From positions 1-40,224 of IMG/VR virus record IMGVR_UViG_3300032770_001053: 40,224 nt of DNA. One strand, written 5' to 3'. Shown here piece by piece: positions 747 to 40,224 of this stretch (within the stretch, counting starts at the first letter, position 1; every line of letters begins with the position of its first letter). Below the pieces are notes generated by a model that did not search any database, was not told where the DNA came from, and worked only from the letters and a program-made list of their open reading frames with translations. A program made the position numbers and the translations under genes. Origin of the DNA: a virus.

Positions 747-1185
747 AGATTATTCAATTTCGGACACGGCCGCAGTGAAACGTTCCTCCGGCTCGGATCA
801 CTATTGGGCCTGCATGGCGGAGCGCTTGGGCTTCGATATCGCCGTCAAGCGCGCGATGGCCAAGGACTTAGAGTGCTTCCAGTATAAGCGCGAGTACCTC
901 TGTCAGATGCTCTCTCACGAGCTGGGGCGCCCGATCTCCGTGCCGCAGATGGATGCGTTTCTCGCTGAGAGTAAATCGCATCGCCTGCCTGCCGCCATGA
1001 TTCCTGCCTGGGTGAAGGTTACTAAGTCGCGCCGCCTGCTCGAAATCCTATGTCAAGCCTGTGGTGTTGGTGTGGCGGATGAGACCGAGCGGCAGTTTGC
1101 GGAGCTAGGGAGAGCGGAAATCCGGCGAAGAAAAGCGGAGTCTGAGGTTTCCGAATTGAGGTCCGAGCTATGGGACAAAGCCTGA
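739..1185 (+). CDS. Putative phage regulatory protein, unknown
   Basis: A 148-residue protein starting at ATG 739, preceded by a weak AAGGCGAG ribosome site and overlapping the previous gene. The middle (about residues 38-100: Lys/Glu-rich helix, REYLCQMLSHELGRPISVPQ, then an AMIPAWVKVTKSRRLLEIL stretch) resembles small phage regulators that pair a helix-turn-helix with a helix checking colony-type or stage control, as in YmfL/CII-like proteins, but the match is weak. The C-terminus (about 115-148) is a charged coiled coil. It overlaps the transposase start by 16 bases, implying translational coupling. A role in early regulation is inferred from position. Confidence 0.55.
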   Translation: MSEDYSISDTAAVKRSSGSDHYWACMAERLGFDIAVKRAMAKDLECFQYKREYLCQMLSHELGRPISVPQMDAFLAESKSHRLPAAMIPAWVKVTKSRRLLEILCQACGVGVADETERQFAELGRAEIRRRKAESEVSELRSELWDKA

Positions 1186-3281
1186 CAAAACAGGAAGTTG
1201 CGGAAGCTACAGGCTATACCCCTCGATGGGTGGAGAAACACGCCGAAGAATTGCGCGGCGAGGACGGCCGATTCGACCTGGCGAAGCTGCCGCCGGAAGC
1301 ACAGGCGCGCTGGGCCGCGCAATCGAAAGTCGTCGAGATGGTGCCTTCCGGCCAGCTCGCGCTGTCGCTCACTGTGCCGTCCGCTCCGAACCTGAGCGAT
1401 GAGGATCGCGCGGAAGCCGAGAAGCGCTTCGCGGTGATCGAGCCGCTAGTGAAGCCCGACAAGTACGCGATGCTCTGGGTGCAACACCGGCAGAGTAAGG
1501 TGGCGATGGTTGAGTACCTGATGCAAGCGCACCAGGTGAAGCGGCGGACAATCTACCACTGGCTGAAGAAATTCAAGACGGGCGGTCTGCCGGCGCTCGT
1601 CACCAAGGACCGCGCAGATAAGGGCAGGCCGCGGGTGATGAATCGTGCGGCGCTGGAATTTCTGCTCGCGGCTGCGCTGCCACGCAAGGGCAGCTATGGC
1701 ACGCTGAGTGTGGCGGAGATCCATCGCGCCTATCAAGAGGAGCGCGCCTGGCGCGCGGCGCACGCATCGCGCCCGCTGGGTGAATTCGAAGTAAAGAAGT
1801 ATTCGCGGTATATAGACGGATCTGGCCGGCTGTCGTCCCAAGCCCAGTTGCCGGAGGCGTCACCTGAAACCTTCCGCGTCTGGTTCCACCGAATTCCTGA
1901 AATCGCGCGAGTGATGGCGCGCGATGGCGAGGAATGCTTCCATAACACCCAAGAAATCCTCTCTTTTCGCTCCCTCCAGGACATCCGGCCTCTGGACTAC
2001 GTGGTGATGGATCACCGGCGCCTCGACTTCTTTTGCCTGCTGCACGATAAGCAGGGCTGGAAGTTGGGGCGCCCGTGGCTCACCGCGGCGATCGATATGC
2101 GCACGCGCAAGTGGCTGGGCTGGGTGATCGTCGAGAACCCCAGCTCGGACTCGATCGCGGCCGTGCTCAAGAAGGTGTTTCTAGCCTACGGGCTGCCGGT
2201 GAGCCTGTACTGGGATAACGGCAAAGACTTCACCTGCGAATGGCTGGAAGGCAAGACGTCGCGCAGCCGCAAGTCCGAAAAAGTAGGCGAGATGACGACG
2301 GCCTGGCGCGGCGTGCTGGAGTCGCTGGGCGTGCGGGTGCATCACGCGATCGTGAAGCGCGCGCGCAGCAAGATCATCGAGCCAAACTTCGGCAACACTG
2401 CGAACTTCGACCGGACGCTGCCGTGGTGGTGTGGGCATAAACCTACGGCGCGGCCGGAACGCTTTGCGGCGCTGCTCGACCAGCATGAGAGCTGGCTGCG
2501 CGGTACCGCGGCTGCGCCGGCGTTTCCGACTATCGAGCAGGTGGCGGATCTCTACGATGAGTTCCTCGGGACGCTTAATGAGCGCGAGCACTCCGGCGAA
2601 GGGATGCGCAAGATCACGGCCACGGGCCAGGGTTGGATGTGTCCGAACGAAGCCTGGGAGCTGCTGATCGGCAAGGTCGAGCGGCGCGCCGTACCGCCCG
2701 AGGTGCTCCAGTTTTGCTTTGCGAAGCGGCGCGACTTACTGGTGCGCAACGGCGAACTGCGGGCGACGTTCGGCGGCCGGCTGTTTCATTACCGGATGGC
2801 CGACTCGGGCGTGGCTCTGATGGCCTATAACGGCCGCGAAGCGCAACTCGCCTACGATCCGCTCGACCTGGGCACGGCCGCGGTGTATATCGAGAACCGT
2901 TTCCTGGGCCTGGCTAACTGCGTAGAGTTGCGGCGCATGGGCGAGGACGCCTTCGTACAAGATGAGCGCGATCGCCGGGCAGCTCGTCGCGAAGTCAAGA
3001 AGTATATCGAAGCGGTTCATCATCAGATTCCAGTGCCGGATTACCGGGAGCGGGCCGATAGGCGCCGCGCGGTCCTGCCGGCACGGATTGAGCCGGAACG
3101 GGTATCTGGGGAGGTATCCGTTCCGGCTCAGATCGTCGAAGCGGCCGCGGCCGATGCCGCGGACAAACAGTTCTCTTTCGCGGCCGCGCCTACGGGCGCG
3201 GAGCTGATCCGCAAGGCGGATGAATCGGCTTACCGCGATGACGACAGTGAATTCCGGTTCTTCAAAACCGAGGGGGACTAA
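1170..3281 (+). CDS. A: Mu A-type DDE transposase
   Basis: A 703-residue protein, close to Mu A (663). It cuts the phage ends and joins them to target DNA during integration and replicative transposition. Residues 1-45 look like the small enhancer-binding helix-turn-helix (TKQEVAEATGYTPRWVEKH). Residues about 95-170 form the end-binding helices (VKRRTIYHWLKKFKTGG). The RNase H-like core holds the acidic triad: D281 (YVVMD), D349 (LYWDNGKDF) and E404 (KIIEPNFG). A beta-barrel region follows (about 500-600), then a charged C-terminal tail of the kind that contacts B. It is immediately followed by B (TAA then ATG). All three catalytic residues are present, so it is probably active. Confidence 0.96.
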   Translation: MGQSLTKQEVAEATGYTPRWVEKHAEELRGEDGRFDLAKLPPEAQARWAAQSKVVEMVPSGQLALSLTVPSAPNLSDEDRAEAEKRFAVIEPLVKPDKYAMLWVQHRQSKVAMVEYLMQAHQVKRRTIYHWLKKFKTGGLPALVTKDRADKGRPRVMNRAALEFLLAAALPRKGSYGTLSVAEIHRAYQEERAWRAAHASRPLGEFEVKKYSRYIDGSGRLSSQAQLPEASPETFRVWFHRIPEIARVMARDGEECFHNTQEILSFRSLQDIRPLDYVVMDHRRLDFFCLLHDKQGWKLGRPWLTAAIDMRTRKWLGWVIVENPSSDSIAAVLKKVFLAYGLPVSLYWDNGKDFTCEWLEGKTSRSRKSEKVGEMTTAWRGVLESLGVRVHHAIVKRARSKIIEPNFGNTANFDRTLPWWCGHKPTARPERFAALLDQHESWLRGTAAAPAFPTIEQVADLYDEFLGTLNEREHSGEGMRKITATGQGWMCPNEAWELLIGKVERRAVPPEVLQFCFAKRRDLLVRNGELRATFGGRLFHYRMADSGVALMAYNGREAQLAYDPLDLGTAAVYIENRFLGLANCVELRRMGEDAFVQDERDRRAARREVKKYIEAVHHQIPVPDYRERADRRRAVLPARIEPERVSGEVSVPAQIVEAAAADAADKQFSFAAAPTGAELIRKADESAYRDDDSEFRFFKTEGD

Positions 3282-4313
3282 ATGGTGTGCCAACTACCGC
3301 AAGCGGTCACAGACCAATTGCGGGACGAAGTGAACGAGTTTCTGAAGACGCGGCCGGACCTGGGGCCGGCGGACCTGGCGCAGTACACGACGATTGCGGA
3401 ATCGACGGTGCGGACGTGGCTGCGCGGCGGCATTCCGGGCGGCCTGGAAGTGATCGCCGAGATGCGCCGGGTACTCGACCAGGCGCGCGCGGGTGACATC
3501 CTGCGGCCGGGCGGCACCGAGGCCCGAGTGCTGAGCGAGCAGCCGGGGAAGCGCGTACGGAAAGTGGCGCGCGCCGGCGCGTTCTACGCGACGCAAACCG
3601 TGAAGCGGGTCTCCGAGGTGCTGGACTATTGCGCGGAGAATTGCGCGATCGGCGTGGTCACCGCGGATTTCGGCGTCGGCAAGACGGAAGCCATTAAGGC
3701 ATGGCGCCGCGAGACGGCCGGCAAGGTCGAGAGTGTGGTGTTCGAGTTCGACGAGTTCAGCTCGACGAACAAGGTGGATTTCGTGCGCGTGCTGGCGCGG
3801 CATTTCGGGCTACGCAGCGACGTGGGATCGCAGAACGGCGGCCTGGTGTTTCGCGAAGTGTGCGAATACTTGCGGCGCAACCCGTGCCTGCTGATCTTCG
3901 ACCAGTGCGAGACGGTGCGGCCGCGCGTGTGCCAGGTGATCCGGCAGATCCACGACCGCACGGCGGACGCCGGCGTGGGCGTGGTGATGCTGGCGGCGCC
4001 GATCCTGCTGGCGCGGCTGATGGCCGGCAAGATGGTCGACCTGGGCGCGCTGACGTCGCGCGTGGGAATCTGGGCGCCGCTGAGCGGCCTGACCCGGCCG
4101 GAGATGGCCGCGATCGTGAAGCAGGAAGGCTTCGCGGAGGTGGACGAGGCGGCCTTCGATCTGTGGGTGAAGGCTACGGCCGGGTCTATGCGGCGGCTGA
4201 TGCGCGCGATCGACCTGTTGAAGGCGCGGCACGCGGGCAAGCGGGTCACCGAGAAAACTATCGCCGGCGTGGCGGGTCATTTGTGGGGTCTGAATTTGGA
4301 AGCGGCGAGTTAG
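3282..4313 (+). CDS. B: Mu B-type AAA+ ATPase, target selection and immunity
   Basis: A 343-residue protein (Mu B is 312). The N-terminal helix-turn-helix (about residues 28-50, DLAQYTTIAESTVRTWLRGG) is typical of B. The Walker A motif is at about 127-136 (TADFGVGKTE; K134, T135) and the Walker B at 202-208 (CLLIFDQ; D207). B proteins form ATP-dependent filaments on target DNA, deliver it to A and stimulate strand transfer. The start directly follows the stop of A with an AGGGGGA ribosome site inside the end of A. Family assignment is firm; function follows from the family. Confidence 0.94.
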   Translation: MVCQLPQAVTDQLRDEVNEFLKTRPDLGPADLAQYTTIAESTVRTWLRGGIPGGLEVIAEMRRVLDQARAGDILRPGGTEARVLSEQPGKRVRKVARAGAFYATQTVKRVSEVLDYCAENCAIGVVTADFGVGKTEAIKAWRRETAGKVESVVFEFDEFSSTNKVDFVRVLARHFGLRSDVGSQNGGLVFREVCEYLRRNPCLLIFDQCETVRPRVCQVIRQIHDRTADAGVGVVMLAAPILLARLMAGKMVDLGALTSRVGIWAPLSGLTRPEMAAIVKQEGFAEVDEAAFDLWVKATAGSMRRLMRAIDLLKARHAGKRVTEKTIAGVAGHLWGLNLEAAS

Positions 4314-4322
4314 GGGAGTGCG

Positions 4323-4847
4323 ATGGGGAGACCGAAGAAAGCGACGAAGACGCTGGGATCGATCAACGAATGCGACGCGGCTATGTACCGGCTGCTGATG
4401 GCCACGATCGAGCGCAAGAAGCTGGAGTCGATGCGCGACCTGCAGGTGGCCGCGGCGCAGCGATTGTACGAGGCGGACATCAACGCGGCGGTGCGGGACG
4501 CGGCTGATCTGGAAGCGCAGCTCCAGCAGTATTACCTGACGCACTTGGCGGAAGTCGAGCGGGATGGCAAGAAGAGCCTGCAACTGACGTACGGCGTGAT
4601 GGGGCGGAGGCTGAGCCCGCCGGCGGTGCACCTGGCGAGCAAGTCCTGGACGTGGGCGGCGGTGCTGGCCAAGCTGCGGGAGGCGTTCGGCGATCGCTTC
4701 ATCCGGATGCGCGATCCGGAAGTGGACAAAGAGAAGGTGAAGGAGATTCTGCCGGCGGACCAGATGGCGGCGTACGGCATGAAGCTCCACCAGGACGAAA
4801 ACTTCTATGCCGAGCCTTCCATGCCGGCGACGCGGGAGGCGGTGTGA
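4323..4847 (+). CDS. gam: Gam-like host-nuclease inhibitor
   Basis: A 174-residue protein, the same length as Mu Gam. Residues about 10-75 form a long charged coiled coil, followed by a compact domain with the Gam pattern (RLSPPAVHLASKSWTWAAVL, then FGDRFIRMRDPEVDKEKVKE). Mu Gam is a Ku-like dimer that binds DNA ends and shields them from RecBCD and other exonucleases. A GGGGAG ribosome site lies just upstream of ATG 4323. Its place after B is as in Mu. The last codons overlap the GTG start of the next gene. Confidence 0.9.
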   Translation: MGRPKKATKTLGSINECDAAMYRLLMATIERKKLESMRDLQVAAAQRLYEADINAAVRDAADLEAQLQQYYLTHLAEVERDGKKSLQLTYGVMGRRLSPPAVHLASKSWTWAAVLAKLREAFGDRFIRMRDPEVDKEKVKEILPADQMAAYGMKLHQDENFYAEPSMPATREAV

Positions 4848-5278
4848 AGCAAGACGTCGATGACGTGTATGGACGCGCCGCCGAGGGCGCGCTGCCGCTG
4901 TTCGATGAGGGGCCGTTCAGCCACTCGCCGATAGATCCGGAGCCGGTAGAGAAGGTAGTCGCGGGGCTGATCTGGCAGCGGGATCGCGTGCGGCCGATCG
5001 CGATCCGTGAGATCACGGCGGCGACGGGGATGAGCGAGCGCGCGGTGAAGGAGACGGTCGAGCAATTGCGCACGGCGCATCGCTGCGCGATCGGGGCGGC
5101 GCGCCAGGAGCCGTTCGGGTACTTCTGGATCCGTTCGGCCGAGGACCGGGAGATCGCGGTACGGCCGTATCGCGAGCAGATTTTCACGATGTTGCGGACG
5201 CTGCGGGTGTTGGATTCACCGGCCGCGTTGCGCGAGTTTTTGGGGCAGTTGCGATTGGAAGTAGAAAGGGAGGTCTGA
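4844..5278 (+). CDS. Winged-helix-like phage protein
   Basis: A 144-residue protein starting at GTG 4844 (GTGA overlap with gam; GGAGG at 4835-4839). Residues about 35-85 read as a helix-turn-helix (IREITAATGMSERAVKETVEQLR) with a following beta-wing (QEPFGYFWI). The C-terminal helices (about 95-144) could mediate dimerisation. The fold suggests DNA-binding in the early/middle operon, perhaps a regulator or replication-accessory protein. I do not recognise a named family. Confidence 0.75.
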   Translation: MKQDVDDVYGRAAEGALPLFDEGPFSHSPIDPEPVEKVVAGLIWQRDRVRPIAIREITAATGMSERAVKETVEQLRTAHRCAIGAARQEPFGYFWIRSAEDREIAVRPYREQIFTMLRTLRVLDSPAALREFLGQLRLEVEREV

Positions 5279-5279
5279 A

Positions 5280-5690
5280 ATGAGTTGTGTACGGATCGTT
5301 GTAGTAGACGCGGAAGGTGACGCGCAAGCGCTGGCGGCCGCGATGGAGATGTTCGCGGCGCGGCTGGCTGGGACGAGAAAGGACGCGGCGGCGCCCGCTG
5401 ACGTGGCAGTGGCGCCGCGGGCGATCGTGGCGCCGGCAAATAAGAGGATGAAGCGGCGCGCGCTGGCTGCGCCGGTCCCCGCGGCGGCAGAGGAAGAGCC
5501 GGTAACGCTGGTCGATATGGTGCGCGCGGCGGTGCGCGAAAGCCCGCGGACGAACGCCGAAGTGCGCGATGCGGTTGGGCGCGCCGGCGGGAAGCGCGAC
5601 CAGGTGGACGGCGCGCTGTGGGCACTGCGCAAACGAAACGAGATCTACAAGGGCGAGGACCTGAAATGGCGGTTCGCTGCAGGCAAGTAG
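5280..5690 (+). CDS. Hypothetical protein with C-terminal winged-helix domain
   Basis: A 136-residue protein. A short beta/alpha N-terminus (about 1-35) is followed by an Ala/Pro/Lys linker (about 36-75) and a compact C-terminal domain (about 76-136: EPVTLVDMVRAAV, RTNAEVRDAVGRAG, VDGALWALRKRNEIY) that looks like a winged helix as used in anti-restriction or regulatory proteins. An AGGGAGG ribosome site precedes ATG 5280 within the end of the previous gene. Its 3' end overlaps the HNH gene by 25 bases. Function unknown. Confidence 0.75.
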   Translation: MSCVRIVVVDAEGDAQALAAAMEMFAARLAGTRKDAAAPADVAVAPRAIVAPANKRMKRRALAAPVPAAAEEEPVTLVDMVRAAVRESPRTNAEVRDAVGRAGGKRDQVDGALWALRKRNEIYKGEDLKWRFAAGK

Positions 5691-5986
5691 GATCGGCGCA
5701 CCCGCGGTTCATCCGCGGCACCTATCTGACCGAGAAGGGGTACGTGCGCATCTCGTCGGGAGCGGACCGCGGCAAGTATGAGCACCGCGCGGTGATGGAG
5801 CGGCTCATCGGCGGTCCGATTCCGGCGGGGATGACGGTCGAGCACATCGACCATCGGCGCGCGCACAACTGCTGGCAAAACCTGATGCTGCTGGATAAGC
5901 GGATCCACGATTTCATCTCGTGGGAAAACATCCGGCGGTTTCAGGAGCTGCAGGCCGCGCCTCCGGACTGGGTGGAGGCGGCGTGA
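5666..5986 (+). CDS. HNH endonuclease
   Basis: A 106-residue protein with an HNH/AP2-type nuclease fold: EHRAVMERLIGG (about 32-45), VEHIDHRRAHNCWQNLMLL (about 53-72) with the His-Asp-His...Asn-His-x(2)-NL pattern that binds the metal and activates water. Start ATG 5666 is chosen because a GAGG site lies 8 bases upstream; the gene overlaps the preceding one by 25 bases. Such nucleases in phages act as homing enzymes, packaging accessories or DNA-repair factors. Here it lies in the early region, far from the terminase, so a homing or mobile origin is possible. Confidence 0.83.
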   Translation: MAVRCRQVGSAHPRFIRGTYLTEKGYVRISSGADRGKYEHRAVMERLIGGPIPAGMTVEHIDHRRAHNCWQNLMLLDKRIHDFISWENIRRFQELQAAPPDWVEAA

Positions 5987-6468
5987 CGATTACGGCGGAA
6001 GAGATGGCGATCGCGCGCACGGCGGTGATGAAACTGCGCCGCGCACTGCCCATGCATCACGAGTTCGATGACCTGGTGAGCGCGGCGTACCTGGCGCTGG
6101 CGAAGGCGAAGGCGCGGGGCGTGCCGGAGCGATCGCTAGGCCGGGCCGTGCGGTTCGGGGTGATCGACCAGGTGCGCGCGCTGGATGGGTTCTGGCGGGC
6201 GCGCGAGCATAACTTCATCACGTTCTGCGAGTACAGGCCAGGCGATTCGCGGCAGATGGATGCAGGGCAAGAGCGCGCGGTGCTCTATCGGGAGCTGCGC
6301 GAGGCCGTTGGACGCCTGCCGCACCGGCAAGCGGAAGTGATCCAGCTACTGCTTGGCGGGATGAATACGGCGAGTATTGCGCGGGCGCGGGGCGTGACAC
6401 GCGGCGCGATCTTCCAGACGCGCGAGGCGGCGATCCGCAAGCTGCGGGTAGCGATGGGGGTGGCGTGA
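5983..6468 (+). CDS. Sigma-70-like RNA polymerase sigma factor
   Basis: A 161-residue protein from GTG 5983 (GTGA overlap, GGAGG at 5974-5978). Residues about 27-72 match sigma region 2 (EFDDLVSAAYLALAKAK and VRFGVIDQVRAL). Residues about 105-156 match region 4 (GRLPHRQAEVIQLLLGGMNT then the helix-turn-helix IARARGVTRGAIFQTREAAI). Regions 1 and 3 are absent, as in ECF-type factors. It sits between early and late genes, where Mu encodes the activator Mor. I infer that it directs host polymerase to middle or late phage promoters. No cognate promoter could be seen. Confidence 0.82.
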   Translation: MTITAEEMAIARTAVMKLRRALPMHHEFDDLVSAAYLALAKAKARGVPERSLGRAVRFGVIDQVRALDGFWRAREHNFITFCEYRPGDSRQMDAGQERAVLYRELREAVGRLPHRQAEVIQLLLGGMNTASIARARGVTRGAIFQTREAAIRKLRVAMGVA

Positions 6469-7091
6469 ACTGCGCGTGCGGATCGGCGGCGGCGGTGCGG
6501 GCAGGATACTGCCGGGCATGTTGGGCGCGGCAGATCGGGTACGCGCACCGCAAGTACAACTGGACGCCGGAACTGCGCGCGGAGCTGCAGGCTGCCTATC
6601 GCGGACTGCGGAAGCGCGAGCTGAGCGCGGCGCTCTCGAAACTGGAGCGCAAGACGGGCTGGCCGCGGCACGCCATGAAGAGTGAGGCGATCCGGATGGG
6701 GATCATCACGGGCGATCACCGTCGCGCGTGGACGGCCGAGGAAACCGAGTACCTGGCGGAGCGGCTGGGCGTGGTGAGTCTCAAACAGATTGCGCGGCGG
6801 CTGGGGCGATCGCACGGATCCGTGGAGTCGCGCGCGGAGAAGATGGGGCTGTCGCGGCGCGTGAAGGAAGGGTATTGCCTGGCGGACCTGTGCGCGCTGT
6901 TCGGGGAATCGTACAGCAAGGTGAAGCGCTGGCAGGAGCGCGGGCTGTTGGGGCGGGTGCATGCGGTGAGCGGTCTGCGGGTGGCTGAGGAGAACGTGCT
7001 GCAGTTCATCCGGGAGCATCACTGCGAATACGACTTGCGGCGGGTGGATCAGACCTTATTCAAGGCGATGGTTTTTGAGGAGGCGCGATGA
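6465..7091 (+). CDS. Zinc-finger/SANT-like DNA-binding protein
   Basis: A 208-residue protein from GTG 6465 (GTGA overlap with the sigma gene). The N-terminus has a Cys4 cluster (CACG... CRAC, residues about 3-19). Two Trp-rich SANT/Myb-like repeats follow (about 33-80, WTPELRAELQAAYRG; about 88-125, WTAEETEYLAERLG with the helix KQIARRLGRSHGSVESR). The C-terminal part (about 130-195, CLADLCALFGESYSKVKRWQ) resembles an excisionase or MerR-type winged helix. Three DNA-binding units in one protein suggest a transcription regulator that may work with the sigma factor. Partner and target are unknown. Confidence 0.78.
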   Translation: MNCACGSAAAVRAGYCRACWARQIGYAHRKYNWTPELRAELQAAYRGLRKRELSAALSKLERKTGWPRHAMKSEAIRMGIITGDHRRAWTAEETEYLAERLGVVSLKQIARRLGRSHGSVESRAEKMGLSRRVKEGYCLADLCALFGESYSKVKRWQERGLLGRVHAVSGLRVAEENVLQFIREHHCEYDLRRVDQTLFKAMVFEEAR

Positions 7092-7253: not shown

Positions 7254-7676
7254 ATGGGGCCAGAGGCTGGCTTTAAAAATAGGCTGATGCGGGCGATCCA
7301 CGCGGAGGGGACGAAGCGCGGCCTTGACCACGATGGGCTTCGCCAGATCGCGCGCGACAGCTACGGCGTGAAGTCGATGGCGGAGCTGACCGGCGAGCAG
7401 CTCTTCGGGTGGTATCACGGCTGGACCGGGAAGGCGCTGCGGAGCCGCACGAAGGTGCGGCCGTGGGGCGGCGGAGAGGGTCAGATGGTGGCGGCCGAGC
7501 AGCTCATCGAACTGGCGCAGGAATTTGCCAAGCGCGGCTGGGGACCGCAGACGCAAGAGAACTTCATCCGGCGGCAACTGAAGGGCCGGGATACCATCCA
7601 TACCGTGCATGACTGGCGGCGAGTACTCCGGGGAGTAAGAGCGATGAACCGGAGGGACGCGGAGAAACACCAATGA
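7254..7676 (+). CDS. gemA: GemA-like regulatory protein (Mu gp16 family)
   Basis: A 140-residue protein. The N-terminal half has the GemA/DUF1018 pattern: RLMRAIHAEGTKRGLD, IARDSYGVKSMAELTGEQLF, then a basic GKALRSRTKV stretch. The C-terminal half (about 85-125, LIELAQEFAKRGWGPQTQEN and RRQLKGRD) is typical of the second GemA helical domain. Mu GemA modulates host gene expression and DNA topology during early lytic growth. Start ATG 7254 lies one base after the previous stop without its own strong ribosome site, so it is probably coupled. Confidence 0.8.
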   Translation: MGPEAGFKNRLMRAIHAEGTKRGLDHDGLRQIARDSYGVKSMAELTGEQLFGWYHGWTGKALRSRTKVRPWGGGEGQMVAAEQLIELAQEFAKRGWGPQTQENFIRRQLKGRDTIHTVHDWRRVLRGVRAMNRRDAEKHQ

Positions 7677-11447: not shown

Positions 11448-12845
11448 ATGGCGGCGCGAGTCAAACCCGTAGTGCCGCTGCTCGACTGGCAGCGGACTTG
11501 GATCGAGGATGAGTCGCGATTCAAGATCATCGCCGCGACTACGCAGGGCGGTAAGTCGTTTGCGACGTCGCTTGACTGGTCGCTGGCGCGGATGAAAAAG
11601 GAATCGGCGCCACTGGGGATCATGCTGAGCGCGAGCGAGCGCCAGTCGGGCGAGCTGATGGAAAAGGTCCGGATGCACACCGAGGCGTGGGGCGTGGCGA
11701 TCGACTCAAAAATGGAGAGCTTCGAAGGCGTGGAAGTCATGCAGCACGTCGCGCGGTTTCCGAACGGGAAGCGGCTGATCGCGCTGCCGGCGAATCCGGC
11801 GACGGCGCGCGGCTACTCGGGCGATGTCTTCCTGGACGAGTTCGCGCTGCACAAGGATGCGCGGGCGATCTGGGCGGCGCTGTTCGGCCGTATCACGCGC
11901 GGCTTCCGCCTGGCGGTGGCATCCACGATCCACGGGACGCAGAACAAGTTCTTCGAGCTGCTGAAGCTGGTGGGGCTGCACACGGGCGTCCGGCCGGGGA
12001 AGCAGCCAGTGCGGGCGAACGGCTGGAGCGGGCACTGGGTCGACATCTACATGTGCCGGGAGCAGGGGCTGAAGGTGGATATCGAAACCCTGCGCGCGGC
12101 GCTGGCGGATGAAGACGTTTTCCAGGAAGAGTACTGCAATGTGCCGATCGATTCCGCGCTGGACTTTATCCCGCTCAATCTGGTGATGGCATGCGAAAGC
12201 GAAGAGGCGGTGAGTGGATTCGATTTCAAGCCCAGAGCGGGGCTGTTTGCCGGCTGGGATATCGCGCGCAAGCGGGATCTGAGCGTGATCTGGATTCTGG
12301 AGCAGCGCGGGAATGTGCTGGTGACGGTGGGCGTGGTGAAGATGCCGCGGACGCGATTCGCGGAGCAGCGCGAGATGGGCGAGCGGATCGCGGCGTGCGT
12401 GGAGCGGATGGCGATCGACACGACGGGGATCGGCGCGCAGCTCGGCGAAGAGCTGGCGGATAAATTCCCGGAGAAGATCGAGCAGGTGAATTTTGCGGGG
12501 ACGTTCGAGTCGGGGAAAGACGATCGCGGCAAGCCGGTGAACGTGCGCATCAAAGAGCACCTGGCGGTTTCGATGAAGACGGCGATGGAGAACCAGGCCG
12601 TGTTGCTGCCGGACGACGAAAACGCCGTCGCGACGCGCCGGGCGTTCCAGAGCGTGAAGCGGATCGTGACACCCACGGGCATGCGGTTCGACAGCGCGCG
12701 TACGGATGCGGGGCACGCGGATGAGTTCTGGGCGGTAGCGCTAGCGCGCGCGGCTTCGGAGAGCGGGGCGAGTTACGTGCCGGCGGCGAGCGTGGGTCTG
12801 GTCGGGAAGCCGGTGATGGCTGGGGCATTCGGGAGGGTATTTTGA
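11448..12845 (+). CDS. Terminase large subunit (Mu gp28-like)
   Basis: A 465-residue packaging motor and nuclease. Walker A TTQGGKS is at about 31-37 (K36). Walker B DVFLDEF is at about 126-132 (D130, E131). The coupling motif is near STIHGTQN (about 159-166). The RNase H-like nuclease domain begins at AGWDIARKRDLSV (D271), with a second acidic site MAIDTTGIG (D324) and a third near DAGHADEFW (about 423-431). Length and motif order fit the Mu gp28/terminase family. In Mu-like phages it packages from inside the integrated genome by headful. Its stop overlaps the TTG start of a mini-gene. Confidence 0.94.
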   Translation: MAARVKPVVPLLDWQRTWIEDESRFKIIAATTQGGKSFATSLDWSLARMKKESAPLGIMLSASERQSGELMEKVRMHTEAWGVAIDSKMESFEGVEVMQHVARFPNGKRLIALPANPATARGYSGDVFLDEFALHKDARAIWAALFGRITRGFRLAVASTIHGTQNKFFELLKLVGLHTGVRPGKQPVRANGWSGHWVDIYMCREQGLKVDIETLRAALADEDVFQEEYCNVPIDSALDFIPLNLVMACESEEAVSGFDFKPRAGLFAGWDIARKRDLSVIWILEQRGNVLVTVGVVKMPRTRFAEQREMGERIAACVERMAIDTTGIGAQLGEELADKFPEKIEQVNFAGTFESGKDDRGKPVNVRIKEHLAVSMKTAMENQAVLLPDDENAVATRRAFQSVKRIVTPTGMRFDSARTDAGHADEFWAVALARAASESGASYVPAASVGLVGKPVMAGAFGRVF

Positions 12846-12952
12846 AGCGGGTGGTGGGTGTTGGGGCTTGGGTGATGGCTTGGCTCACCTACATTGCGGT
12901 TTGGTCGATCGCGGGGAAAGTGCTGGTTCACGCGGGGTGGCTGAAGTGGTGA
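12842..12952 (+). CDS. 36-residue hydrophobic mini-protein
   Basis: A TTG start at 12842 (TTGA overlap with the terminase, GGGAGGG site at 12831-12837) opens a 36-residue reading frame: KRVVGVGAWVMAWLTYIAVW then SIAGKVLVHAGWLKW. It is one long hydrophobic helix, like a small membrane peptide. Its 3' end overlaps the next GTG start (GTGA). The first 35 bases match the mini-ORF at 35775 (32 of 35 identical). Its short length and repeat origin mean it may be only a coupling bridge, but coupling and ribosome site argue for translation. Confidence 0.6.
   Translation: MKRVVGVGAWVMAWLTYIAVWSIAGKVLVHAGWLKW
12849..12879 (+). repeat. NNNTGGG heptamer repeat cluster
   Basis: Units TGGTGGG, TGTTGGG, GCTTGGG, TGATGGC at 12852-12879, preceded by GGG at 12849. 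Four G-runs within 24 bases fit a G-quadruplex pattern. It forms the 5' end of the 36-residue mini-gene. Confidence 0.8.
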
Positions 12953-13332
12953 ATCAGTACCTGGTCTACTCACAGTCGCGCGGCGAGCTGCAGGCGGGCG
13001 GCGTGGCTGGATGGTTCAGCCGCGGATACAGCGGGCACGGCGCGGGGATGAATAACCCCAAGGCGCAGGCGCTCTCCGATGTGGGGCCGATTCCGCAGGG
13101 ATGGTACACCATCGACGCGCCGATCGATCCGCCGTCGCACCTGGGGCCTTGTGCGATGCCTCTGATTCCGGACGCGATGAATGAGATGTTCGGGCGCAGC
13201 GGATTTTACATCCACGGCGACAACGCAGAGATGAACCACTCGGCGAGCGATGGGTGCATCATTCTGCCGCGGCCGGCGCGGGAGATGATCGCGGCGCGGG
13301 GGCCCGGGTTGCGGCTGCCGGTGACGAAGTAA
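12949..13332 (+). CDS. L,D-transpeptidase-like enzyme (DUF2778/Tlde1-like), candidate endolysin
   Basis: A 127-residue protein from GTG 12949 (GTGA overlap). It contains the signature of the YkuD/Tlde1-type fold: GFYIHGDNAEM (H89) followed by SASDGCIIL with catalytic Cys103 and a downstream Arg. Upstream, the run GHGAGMNNP, VGPIPQGWYTI fits DUF2778 proteins. This enzyme class acts on the peptidoglycan tetrapeptide stem; family members work as cross-linking enzymes or as toxins with carboxypeptidase or exchange activity. No signal peptide is seen. Placed between terminase and portal, it may be the endolysin of this phage. That role is inferred. Confidence 0.8.
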   Translation: MNQYLVYSQSRGELQAGGVAGWFSRGYSGHGAGMNNPKAQALSDVGPIPQGWYTIDAPIDPPSHLGPCAMPLIPDAMNEMFGRSGFYIHGDNAEMNHSASDGCIILPRPAREMIAARGPGLRLPVTK

Positions 13333-39600: not shown

Positions 39601-40004
39601 CGTCGACGGGCGTCACGACGGTGCTGGACGACGGCTATGTCTACTCGTATGCCACTTACTACAGCGGGGCGACTACGACCAATGTGTCGGGATATTTCGG
39701 TGAAACGGTGATCGGCGCCGGGTCGCTGAGCGCGTTTGCGATGGAGTTGGCGGCTACGGCCGTGGAAGGCTCGACGGTGTACGAGTCGACGCTGGAGGCG
39801 GATGTGAACGGCGGGGCGGCTAACTTGTCACTGAGCTGGTCGGGAGGGGGATCGGCGTACGAGATTCTGCTGCAGGCGGGCTTGTTTGGGGCATACCTGC
39901 AGTTGCCGGCTTCGGCGGCGCCGCCGGGCGGGCCGGGAATTATTTATTTCGACGGAACGCACTACTGGGGATGGACTGGGTCGGCATACTCACAGTTGGA
40001 CTGA
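36615..40004 (+). CDS. Central tail fibre / adhesion protein with Ig-like repeats
   Basis: An 1129-residue protein, the largest in the window. Two putative He_PIG/Ig-like repeats at about 198-285 and 290-378 share LPPGLTLNASTGAITGAPTS / LPLGLTLNASSGWITGNPSV. A carbohydrate-binding-like module follows at about 710-885 (LLYDPSFEQQ, SGEYCWELWPYG). A helical repeat region (about 895-960, Ala/Glu/Asn) leads to a Gly/Ser-rich stalk and a C-terminal tip IIYFDGTHYWGWTGSAYSQL. The protein likely forms the host-binding fibre. The tip is repeated in the downstream gene. Confidence 0.85.
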   Translation: MSTSVVAVLGNYQAVPVPPAIYRPGVIGGFAMYPLDYSTVQPSNMSGSAFEVINGTGVGLTGGCAVVGPSGNQWLYQYMPWPIGSADDESSGMAPGWPVPPAPPNNAQSWLWLTVTVTDGTPAFSFYWNSSATVPNNAGDALIGWVVTRVDPARSIQVLAAWSQNIAWAQRAPGVGAVTILPTVPPPLGAGPGTSGMGPLTLVFNGPQGVLNQPYSGSLAASGGDDSAGYTYSITVSSLPPGLTLNASTGAITGAPTSIGTFTFTAEVADSATPPNTETVSCTIYVATTGALTLTFGPATAIYETTYAGQVAATGGAKPYTWALATGSTLPLGLTLNASSGWITGNPSVVGTFTFSIKVTDSQTPSADVATIACTLVVSAVGAAAPVTEATIGTPYAYYSLDVNGNPVWQAITPGTPPSSDPRWGQSQAMWLATMVLASAIPSTTSGYAGGTIDVYLTPWGAPSQVTVASDGVTMTITAGPNFNIALTTNYCILSTGSGGFLNQIKSYTSATVAVLENAVAAGVYSFIPAECRTLMDADTVVIDAFNGNAETFQVVSEIAGNPLSYGYNGGAGSWTAHLQLQRTAGAHPAHSGVTQPATYSTPYAIGASNPFVMAIGGGVDADEWAGSLEPGKTQAVSPEYSVGDPSAYMVLLVGETVTGQQNQWPTSTTPHSAVPVAVEQQQPQTLSAKALVPTEISAIVQDVAGNLGELLYDPSFEQQGAGTSSAWVGSTAGAGSLSEVVNASVLGLPFPGPHSGEYCWELWPYGSGPGIYAGLLETLPCTGGQTYNFSVYVASAIATGMCVLYVNWWTGPNATGSLIGPGSVWGVVSGINTTTPSWPAGPAAGSLVAPLNAVSCQVGAYSNTPGIYWLDDWSMVAAPATTGPLSINSAGDIQLNALGVTNAYLAAQAVQANNMAAASITAANAALAEEAVEAKNVASVYADDVEADSSVLGSLIAGSVTITLDLTTGGSIVSAHGASYVGINALGHALVASNTSTGVTTVLDDGYVYSYATYYSGATTTNVSGYFGETVIGAGSLSAFAMELAATAVEGSTVYESTLEADVNGGAANLSLSWSGGGSAYEILLQAGLFGAYLQLPASAAPPGGPGIIYFDGTHYWGWTGSAYSQLD

Positions 40005-40025: not shown

Positions 40026-40224
40026 TACGAGATCGAGAGTTGAGGTGGAAGCGGTCATCAAGAAGATGGCCGGCATCGTGGGCTTTGTTACGGGTCCACT
40101 GACGTTCGGGGCAAATCTGGCGCCGCCGGGCGCGCCGGGCATTATTTATTTCGACGGAACGCACTACTGGGGATGGACTGGGTCGGCATACTCACAGTTG
40201 GACTGGGAGAAATCAGGTGCCTAA
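40018..40224 (+). CDS. Short fibre-tip-repeat protein
   Basis: A 68-residue protein from GTG 40018 with a GAGGGGAG ribosome site at 40003-40010. The N-terminal half (about 1-34: PNTRSRVEVEAVIKKMAGIV) is unrelated to the fibre end. The C-terminal half repeats the fibre tip (GIIYFDGTHYWGWTGSAYSQ). It ends with stop TAA at the window edge. Either a real small tip protein or the first part of a longer repeat array. The truncated look suggests a duplicated fibre tip. Confidence 0.65.
   Translation: MPNTRSRVEVEAVIKKMAGIVGFVTGPLTFGANLAPPGAPGIIYFDGTHYWGWTGSAYSQLDWEKSGA
40119..40224 (+). repeat. Direct repeat, copy 2 (fibre tip)
   Basis: Copy 2, 202 bases downstream of copy 1. It ends with the same AAATCAGGTGCCTAA block that starts the next gene in copy 1, so a further repeat unit may follow outside the window. 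Confidence 0.9.

Follow-up and report, generated by a model that had tools for sequence, protein, structure and literature searches.

A stripped-down sigma-70 family protein and a GemA-linked triple-HTH protein in a transposable phage without detectable Mor/C

Mor/C has been taken to mark transposable phages, and in Mu and B3 the mor gene adjoins gemA. Mu Mor/C has the early-to-late switch role that is proposed for the proteins considered here, and it shares their GemA neighborhood, but it is homologous to neither of them. Leptospira transposable prophages without Mor/C have been reported, and the replacement was left open there (PMC8705779). Among phage-encoded sigma factors, control of late genes has been proposed or demonstrated for gp47 of phage 7-11 and gp36 of phiEco32, with eight late promoters served by the 7-11 protein (PMC8948821). 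In Bacillus, phage sigma factors of the sporulation type change host dormancy, and phage growth does not require one of them (PMC9429907).

The stretch of DNA analyzed here (the window) spans a complete 40,224-base IMG/VR record, classed as linear. Its genes lie on one strand with few gaps and include the set of a transposable (Mu-like) phage, i.e., a MuA-type transposase, a MuB ATPase, Gam, and GemA, with a run of small early genes between Gam and GemA (Table 1). Judged from its gene content and the profile searches described below, the window is a Mor/C-less transposable soil phage. Its host is probably a member of the Acidobacteriota (Bryobacterales), since the transposase relatives, besides six viral contigs and L008, sit in MAGs mostly titled Bryobacterales, Acidobacteriia, or Candidatus Sulfopaludibacter. 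The original prediction placed a sigma protein with regions 2 and 4 and a three-domain Zn/SANT-like protein between the early genes and GemA, and this arrangement is borne out. The sigma ORF runs from a GTG at 5983 to a TGA at 6468 and overlaps each neighbor by 4 nt (the HNH stop and the GTG of the triple-HTH gene), which places it inside the early operon upstream of GemA.

Table 1. Features of the window relevant to the early region and its surroundings.
Feature	Coordinates	Strand	Evidence and remarks
MuA-like transposase	1170..3281	+	phrog_310 1.6e-70; relatives 41-65% identical
MuB-like transposition ATPase	3282..4313	+	phrog_296 9.9e-30
Mu Gam-like end-protection protein	4323..4847	+	Pfam Phage_Mu_Gam 1.9e-20
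Early gene, winged-helix-like, phrog_2113, conserved in relatives	4844..5278	+	
HNH endonuclease gene directly 5' of the sigma gene	5618..5986	+	Pfam HNH_3 7e-7; true start may be 5744
Sigma-70 family protein, 161 aa, region 2, linker, and region 4, without region 3	5983..6468	+	TIGR02937, phrog_351/1740, AF2/Foldseek
Zinc-ribbon plus three HTH domains, 208 aa, GemA-linked candidate regulator	6465..7091	+	phrog_323 2e-12, conservation, AF2
GemA-like protein	7254..7676	+	phrog_286 6e-5; directly 3' of the triple-HTH gene in most relatives
Large terminase homologue; packaging/morphogenesis genes begin	11448..12845	+	As probe: 97 relatives

The best curated match of the sigma protein is NCBIfam TIGR02937 (sigma70-ECF; E = 1.4e-9), which aligns residues 20–158 with positions 20–165 of the 165-position profile; NCBIfam FliA_WhiG comes second (E = 8.8e-9), and the PHROG sigma family (phrog_351/1740) matches at 8e-9. 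Both curated scores fall under their cut-offs, with 37.8 bits (34–38) vs 42.9 for TIGR02937 (ECF) and 35.4 vs 189.6 bits for TIGR02479 (FliA/WhiG), region 3 being absent; the protein is thus a divergent superfamily member that belongs to no named subgroup. Region 2 is present, as the TIGR02937 alignment begins at profile position 20, though region 2.3 is shortened. The region 4 HTH of the sigma-70 family is also present and is the best conserved part of the protein (Pfam Sigma70_r4_2, 4.4e-5, under the cut-off in hmmscan and over it, at 26.0 bits, in the genome search). Long ORFs are common in all frames of this GC-rich window, but the profile hits leave chance as no concern for either the sigma or the triple-HTH ORF.

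Region 2 pairs with that of a Bryobacterales WhiG/FliA-type sigma (BLASTP, 5e-6). Regions 2 and 4 align with this protein, whereas region 3 and six residues around region 2.3 are missing. Likewise, FliA/WhiG-type sigmas such as that of L096 (12599-13363, Bryobacterales) resemble the window protein in the sequence of regions 2 and 4 and in the predicted fold; the window sigma, at 161 aa compared with 255 aa, has no region 3 and is about six residues short around region 2.3. ECF sigmas have the same two-domain sigma2-linker-sigma4 build, although the window protein scores below the TIGR02937 cut-off. The AF2 model consists of three helices, a low-confidence linker (residues 77–92), and four helices, i.e., a sigma2-linker-sigma4 arrangement, and was built on a two-row alignment including a WhiG-type sequence, which biases it towards a sigma fold. 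In Foldseek searches of the PDB, nearly all top matches of this model were WhiG, FliA, ECF, or primary sigmas, and in the viral library the named matches were mostly phage sigma factors. As judged from the profile matches and the predicted fold, 5983-6468 encodes a genuine but stripped-down bacterial-type sigma-70 family protein, in keeping with the original prediction.

The shortening of regions 2.2–2.3, together with the better conservation of region 4, raises the alternative of a protein that no longer initiates transcription and instead sequesters core polymerase or works via its region 4 HTH as a plain DNA-binding regulator. This seems very unlikely, given that regions 2 and 4 both align to the ECF superfamily profile and that the predicted sigma2 three-helix bundle is retained, albeit in a model whose alignment held the WhiG-type sequence.

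The original prediction saw no Mor/C-like activator and named a profile search beforehand as the check, and no homologue was found in the window with PF08765 or phrog_836. With PF08765, neither the window nor seven relatives yielded a hit. By itself, this profile failed to recover two proteins annotated as Mor, and the decision was therefore left to phrog_836, which is more sensitive. The latter matched 11 of the 12 transposable phages in the reference set, Mu and B3 among them, at E ≤ 2.3e-8; the window had no match, and the best value among the other 11 clade records was 7e-4. A third profile, derived from two Mor proteins of IMG/VR, was also negative in the clade, and profile-profile comparison of the triple-HTH alignment (A1) with the Mor profile returned a probability of 0.8%. 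A hidden Mor in the clade was rejected on these four grounds. The close relatives, with near-identical early gene order, have neither the window sigma nor Mor, so something else must do the job of Mor in this clade.

No homologue of the window sigma was detected in the relatives read, in viral contigs, or in 50,697 phage records, and 399 genomes of the Terriglobia class gave no match at 1e-6. Within its clade, as represented by these sequences, the gene is a singleton. The nearest relative, L008, contains an ECF-like sigma gene (contig positions 23025-23573, G007; L089 1117-1665) that matches TIGR02937 at 7.2e-12 with 39.9 bits, below the cut-off. This gene separates two late genes whose window counterparts abut, and BLASTP showed no relationship of its product to the window sigma. 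The presence of a different sigma as late-region cargo in the nearest relative suggests that sigma genes come and go in the clade as movable cargo. An apparent prophage sigma in L096 was read as a host gene, since it is a full-length host-type WhiG/FliA (275-aa frame) lying ~4 kb beyond the prophage triple-HTH gene.

Such a sporadic distribution also speaks for a host-directed role, in which the sigma would redirect host transcription, e.g., WhiG/FliA-type regulons, rather than serve phage promoters. Its closest named families, FliA and WhiG, the unrelated ECF-like cargo of L008, and the precedent of the Bacillus phage sporulation-type sigmas (PMC9429907) point the same way. Yet the gene is embedded in the early operon by its 4-nt overlaps rather than isolated, and host sigmas are only distantly similar, with nothing reaching 1e-6 in the class genomes; we regard a host-directed role as distinctly unlikely.

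The early regions of the relatives contain other regulators in place of the window sigma. L004 encodes a small protein with a zinc ribbon and a LuxR-type HTH (GerE, 3.4e-15) at 6761-7054, between Gam and the early gene corresponding to that at 4844 in the window. CxxC proteins that end in an HTH like sigma region 4 (LHF.EG...FF..vYRIE) form a family found at three positions: among early genes in L002 (6720-7400), before MuA in L098 (2965-3420), and before the terminase in L008 (9453-9935). Phage records contained no match to these proteins, and no Pfam family scored above its cut-off.

The second protein of the pair is the product of the gene at 6465-7091, for which the earlier description as Zn/SANT-like with three domains was essentially right. 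Its N-terminus carries a CxC...CxxC pattern, such cysteines being present in 7 of the 10 homologues compared, and the helices of the AF2 model (pLDDT 79) fit, in turn, homeodomain-like, SANT/Myb-like, and MerR-like winged-helix domains. A conserved EYDLRRVDQxWFK motif follows the winged helix. PHROG 323, 'D5-like transcriptional regulator', matches residues 21–133 (2e-12); the function of this family is by annotation only, and the C-terminal winged helix and the EYDLRRVDQ motif lie outside the match. A fold search of the PDB with the model yielded no match at E < 0.001.

Homologues of the triple-HTH protein are present in L002, L003, L004, L005, and L008 (alignment A1, 41–53% identity) and in L098, L099, L201, and L204-L206. 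The gene is near GemA in every relative with an intact region: it adjoins GemA in L002, L003, L004, L005, L008, L098, L099, and L201, is 0.3 kb away in L206, and occurs as two tandem copies in L098 and L201. In the window, it holds the slot that mor occupies beside gemA in Mu and B3. L006 and L007, the most distant of the relatives read, have neither a triple-HTH protein nor Mor in the stretches examined. Among chromosomal relatives of the protein in Acidobacteriota, six (L168, L169, L171, L176, L177, and L178) lie near a gene whose product weakly matches sigma region 4; in L168, L169, L171, and L176 the two genes are divergently oriented, a recurring sigma-like plus triple-HTH neighborhood.

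Conservation beside GemA across the clade makes the triple-HTH protein a better candidate for the common Mor substitute than the singleton sigma. We tentatively favor, at a little short of even chances, the reading that the triple-HTH protein is the functional substitute of Mor in the clade and that the window sigma is a lineage-specific extra. According to this model, the early operon would make two adjacent regulators, the sigma and the triple-HTH protein. The clade-wide GemA-linked triple-HTH protein would act as a DNA-binding activator, upon which host RNA polymerase would start middle and late transcription. The sigma would displace the host sigma on core polymerase at a few promoters, of phage late genes or of the host, and so reinforce the switch. 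Against this model, the searches turned up neither promoters nor binding sites for the two proteins, and L006 and L007 show no triple-HTH gene in the stretches examined. Furthermore, the triple-HTH protein may be a generic DNA-binding protein of mobile elements, because its relatives also lie outside Mu-like phages, with matches in 57 of the 399 class genomes, and MuA-type neighbors were present at only 1 of the 40 loci read. The window clade adds a second Mor-less group, after the Leptospira prophages, with a conserved and testable candidate.

The original prediction went further and proposed that the phage switches to middle or late genes by its own sigma, replacing Mor/C outright as gp47 does for the late genes of phage 7-11, the precedent for such a role (PMC8948821). 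Phage 7-11 and phiEco32 are unrelated to the window phage and have mapped promoters. The components of the proposal stand: the sigma fold is real, its gene occupies an early-operon place near GemA, Mor is absent, and a parallel exists in the phiRTG5 family described below. As the main switch, however, the sigma is called into question by being a singleton while all close relatives with the same gene order are likewise Mor-less and keep the triple-HTH gene. In addition, the six residues missing relative to the WhiG type lie around region 2.3, the seat of promoter melting residues, and no common promoter motif was found in the window, where the late genes are almost gapless. We therefore consider this proposal rather unlikely; the main switch may lie elsewhere, with the window sigma as an add-on.

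The upstream-of-late-gene search suggested with the original prediction had little power, the late genes being almost gapless, and gave no common motif. Two-block promoter motifs in the gaps of the window did not rise above shuffled sequence except for repeats of the heptamer GGGTGNT. Neither sigma-28-like or ECF consensus sites, for which there were few gaps to search, nor sigma-70 consensus promoters exceeded shuffled or chance expectation in the window, and no conserved blocks were detected in the clade upstream of TerS, GemA, or A or in the repressor divergence. With so few gaps, the lack of a shared motif is weak evidence. The GGGTGNT heptamers form tandem repeats at window positions 12847, 18889, 24682, 33597, 35783, and 36041, in gaps and at the starts of signal-peptide-like ORFs.

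A second case came from the reference set, in which the Fusobacterium phage phiRTG5 (OR492272) was the sole member without a phrog_836 match. Its annotated sigma factor (WPH65365.1, L214 10858-11463; TIGR02937, 7e-25) is encoded ~1.5 kb downstream of the GemA homologue. The gene is 79–96% conserved in eight IMG/VR contigs (L227-L234) with the same gene order. Upstream of TerS-TerL, eight aligned members of the family have TTTTCC or TTTCC followed, across a spacer, by AGGCACAATATAAG, which does not vary (TTTTCC-N20/21-AGGCACAATATAAG type). A single copy of AGGCACAATATAAG is present in phiRTG5 and in each of the eight contig stretches. This block is a promoter-like candidate, a lead and not proof. 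As in the window, a protein with sigma-70 regions 2 and 4 is thus encoded near GemA along with MuA/MuB homologues and no detectable Mor/C. Unlike that of the window, the phiRTG5 sigma is much closer to bacterial sigmas, lies downstream rather than upstream of GemA, and is conserved family-wide; the two proteins have only superfamily membership in common.

For sigma as the main switch in the window, this independently Mor-less family is a supporting parallel, with the sigma downstream of GemA in 9/9 members and an invariant promoter-like block before TerS-TerL. From these sequence data, replacement of Mor by a sigma is plausible in the phiRTG5 lineage, which offers a cultivable-host case where a sigma may take the place of Mor and a specific promoter candidate is at hand. 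It is doubtful that a phage-encoded sigma has replaced Mor/C at least twice, i.e., in the phiRTG5 family and in the window phage, there with the sigma and the triple-HTH protein as a pair.

Two further observations concern the window outside the early region. The gene after the terminase (12937-13332) ends in an L,D-transpeptidase-like HGDNAEMNHSASDGCI motif, recognized by eye only, and its product is a possible candidate for a lysis or wall enzyme. At the right end, in a region of tail-fiber-like ORFs, an 87-nt near-perfect direct repeat (98%) occupies 39917-40003 and 40119-40205, which could be a variable fiber end or an assembly artefact.
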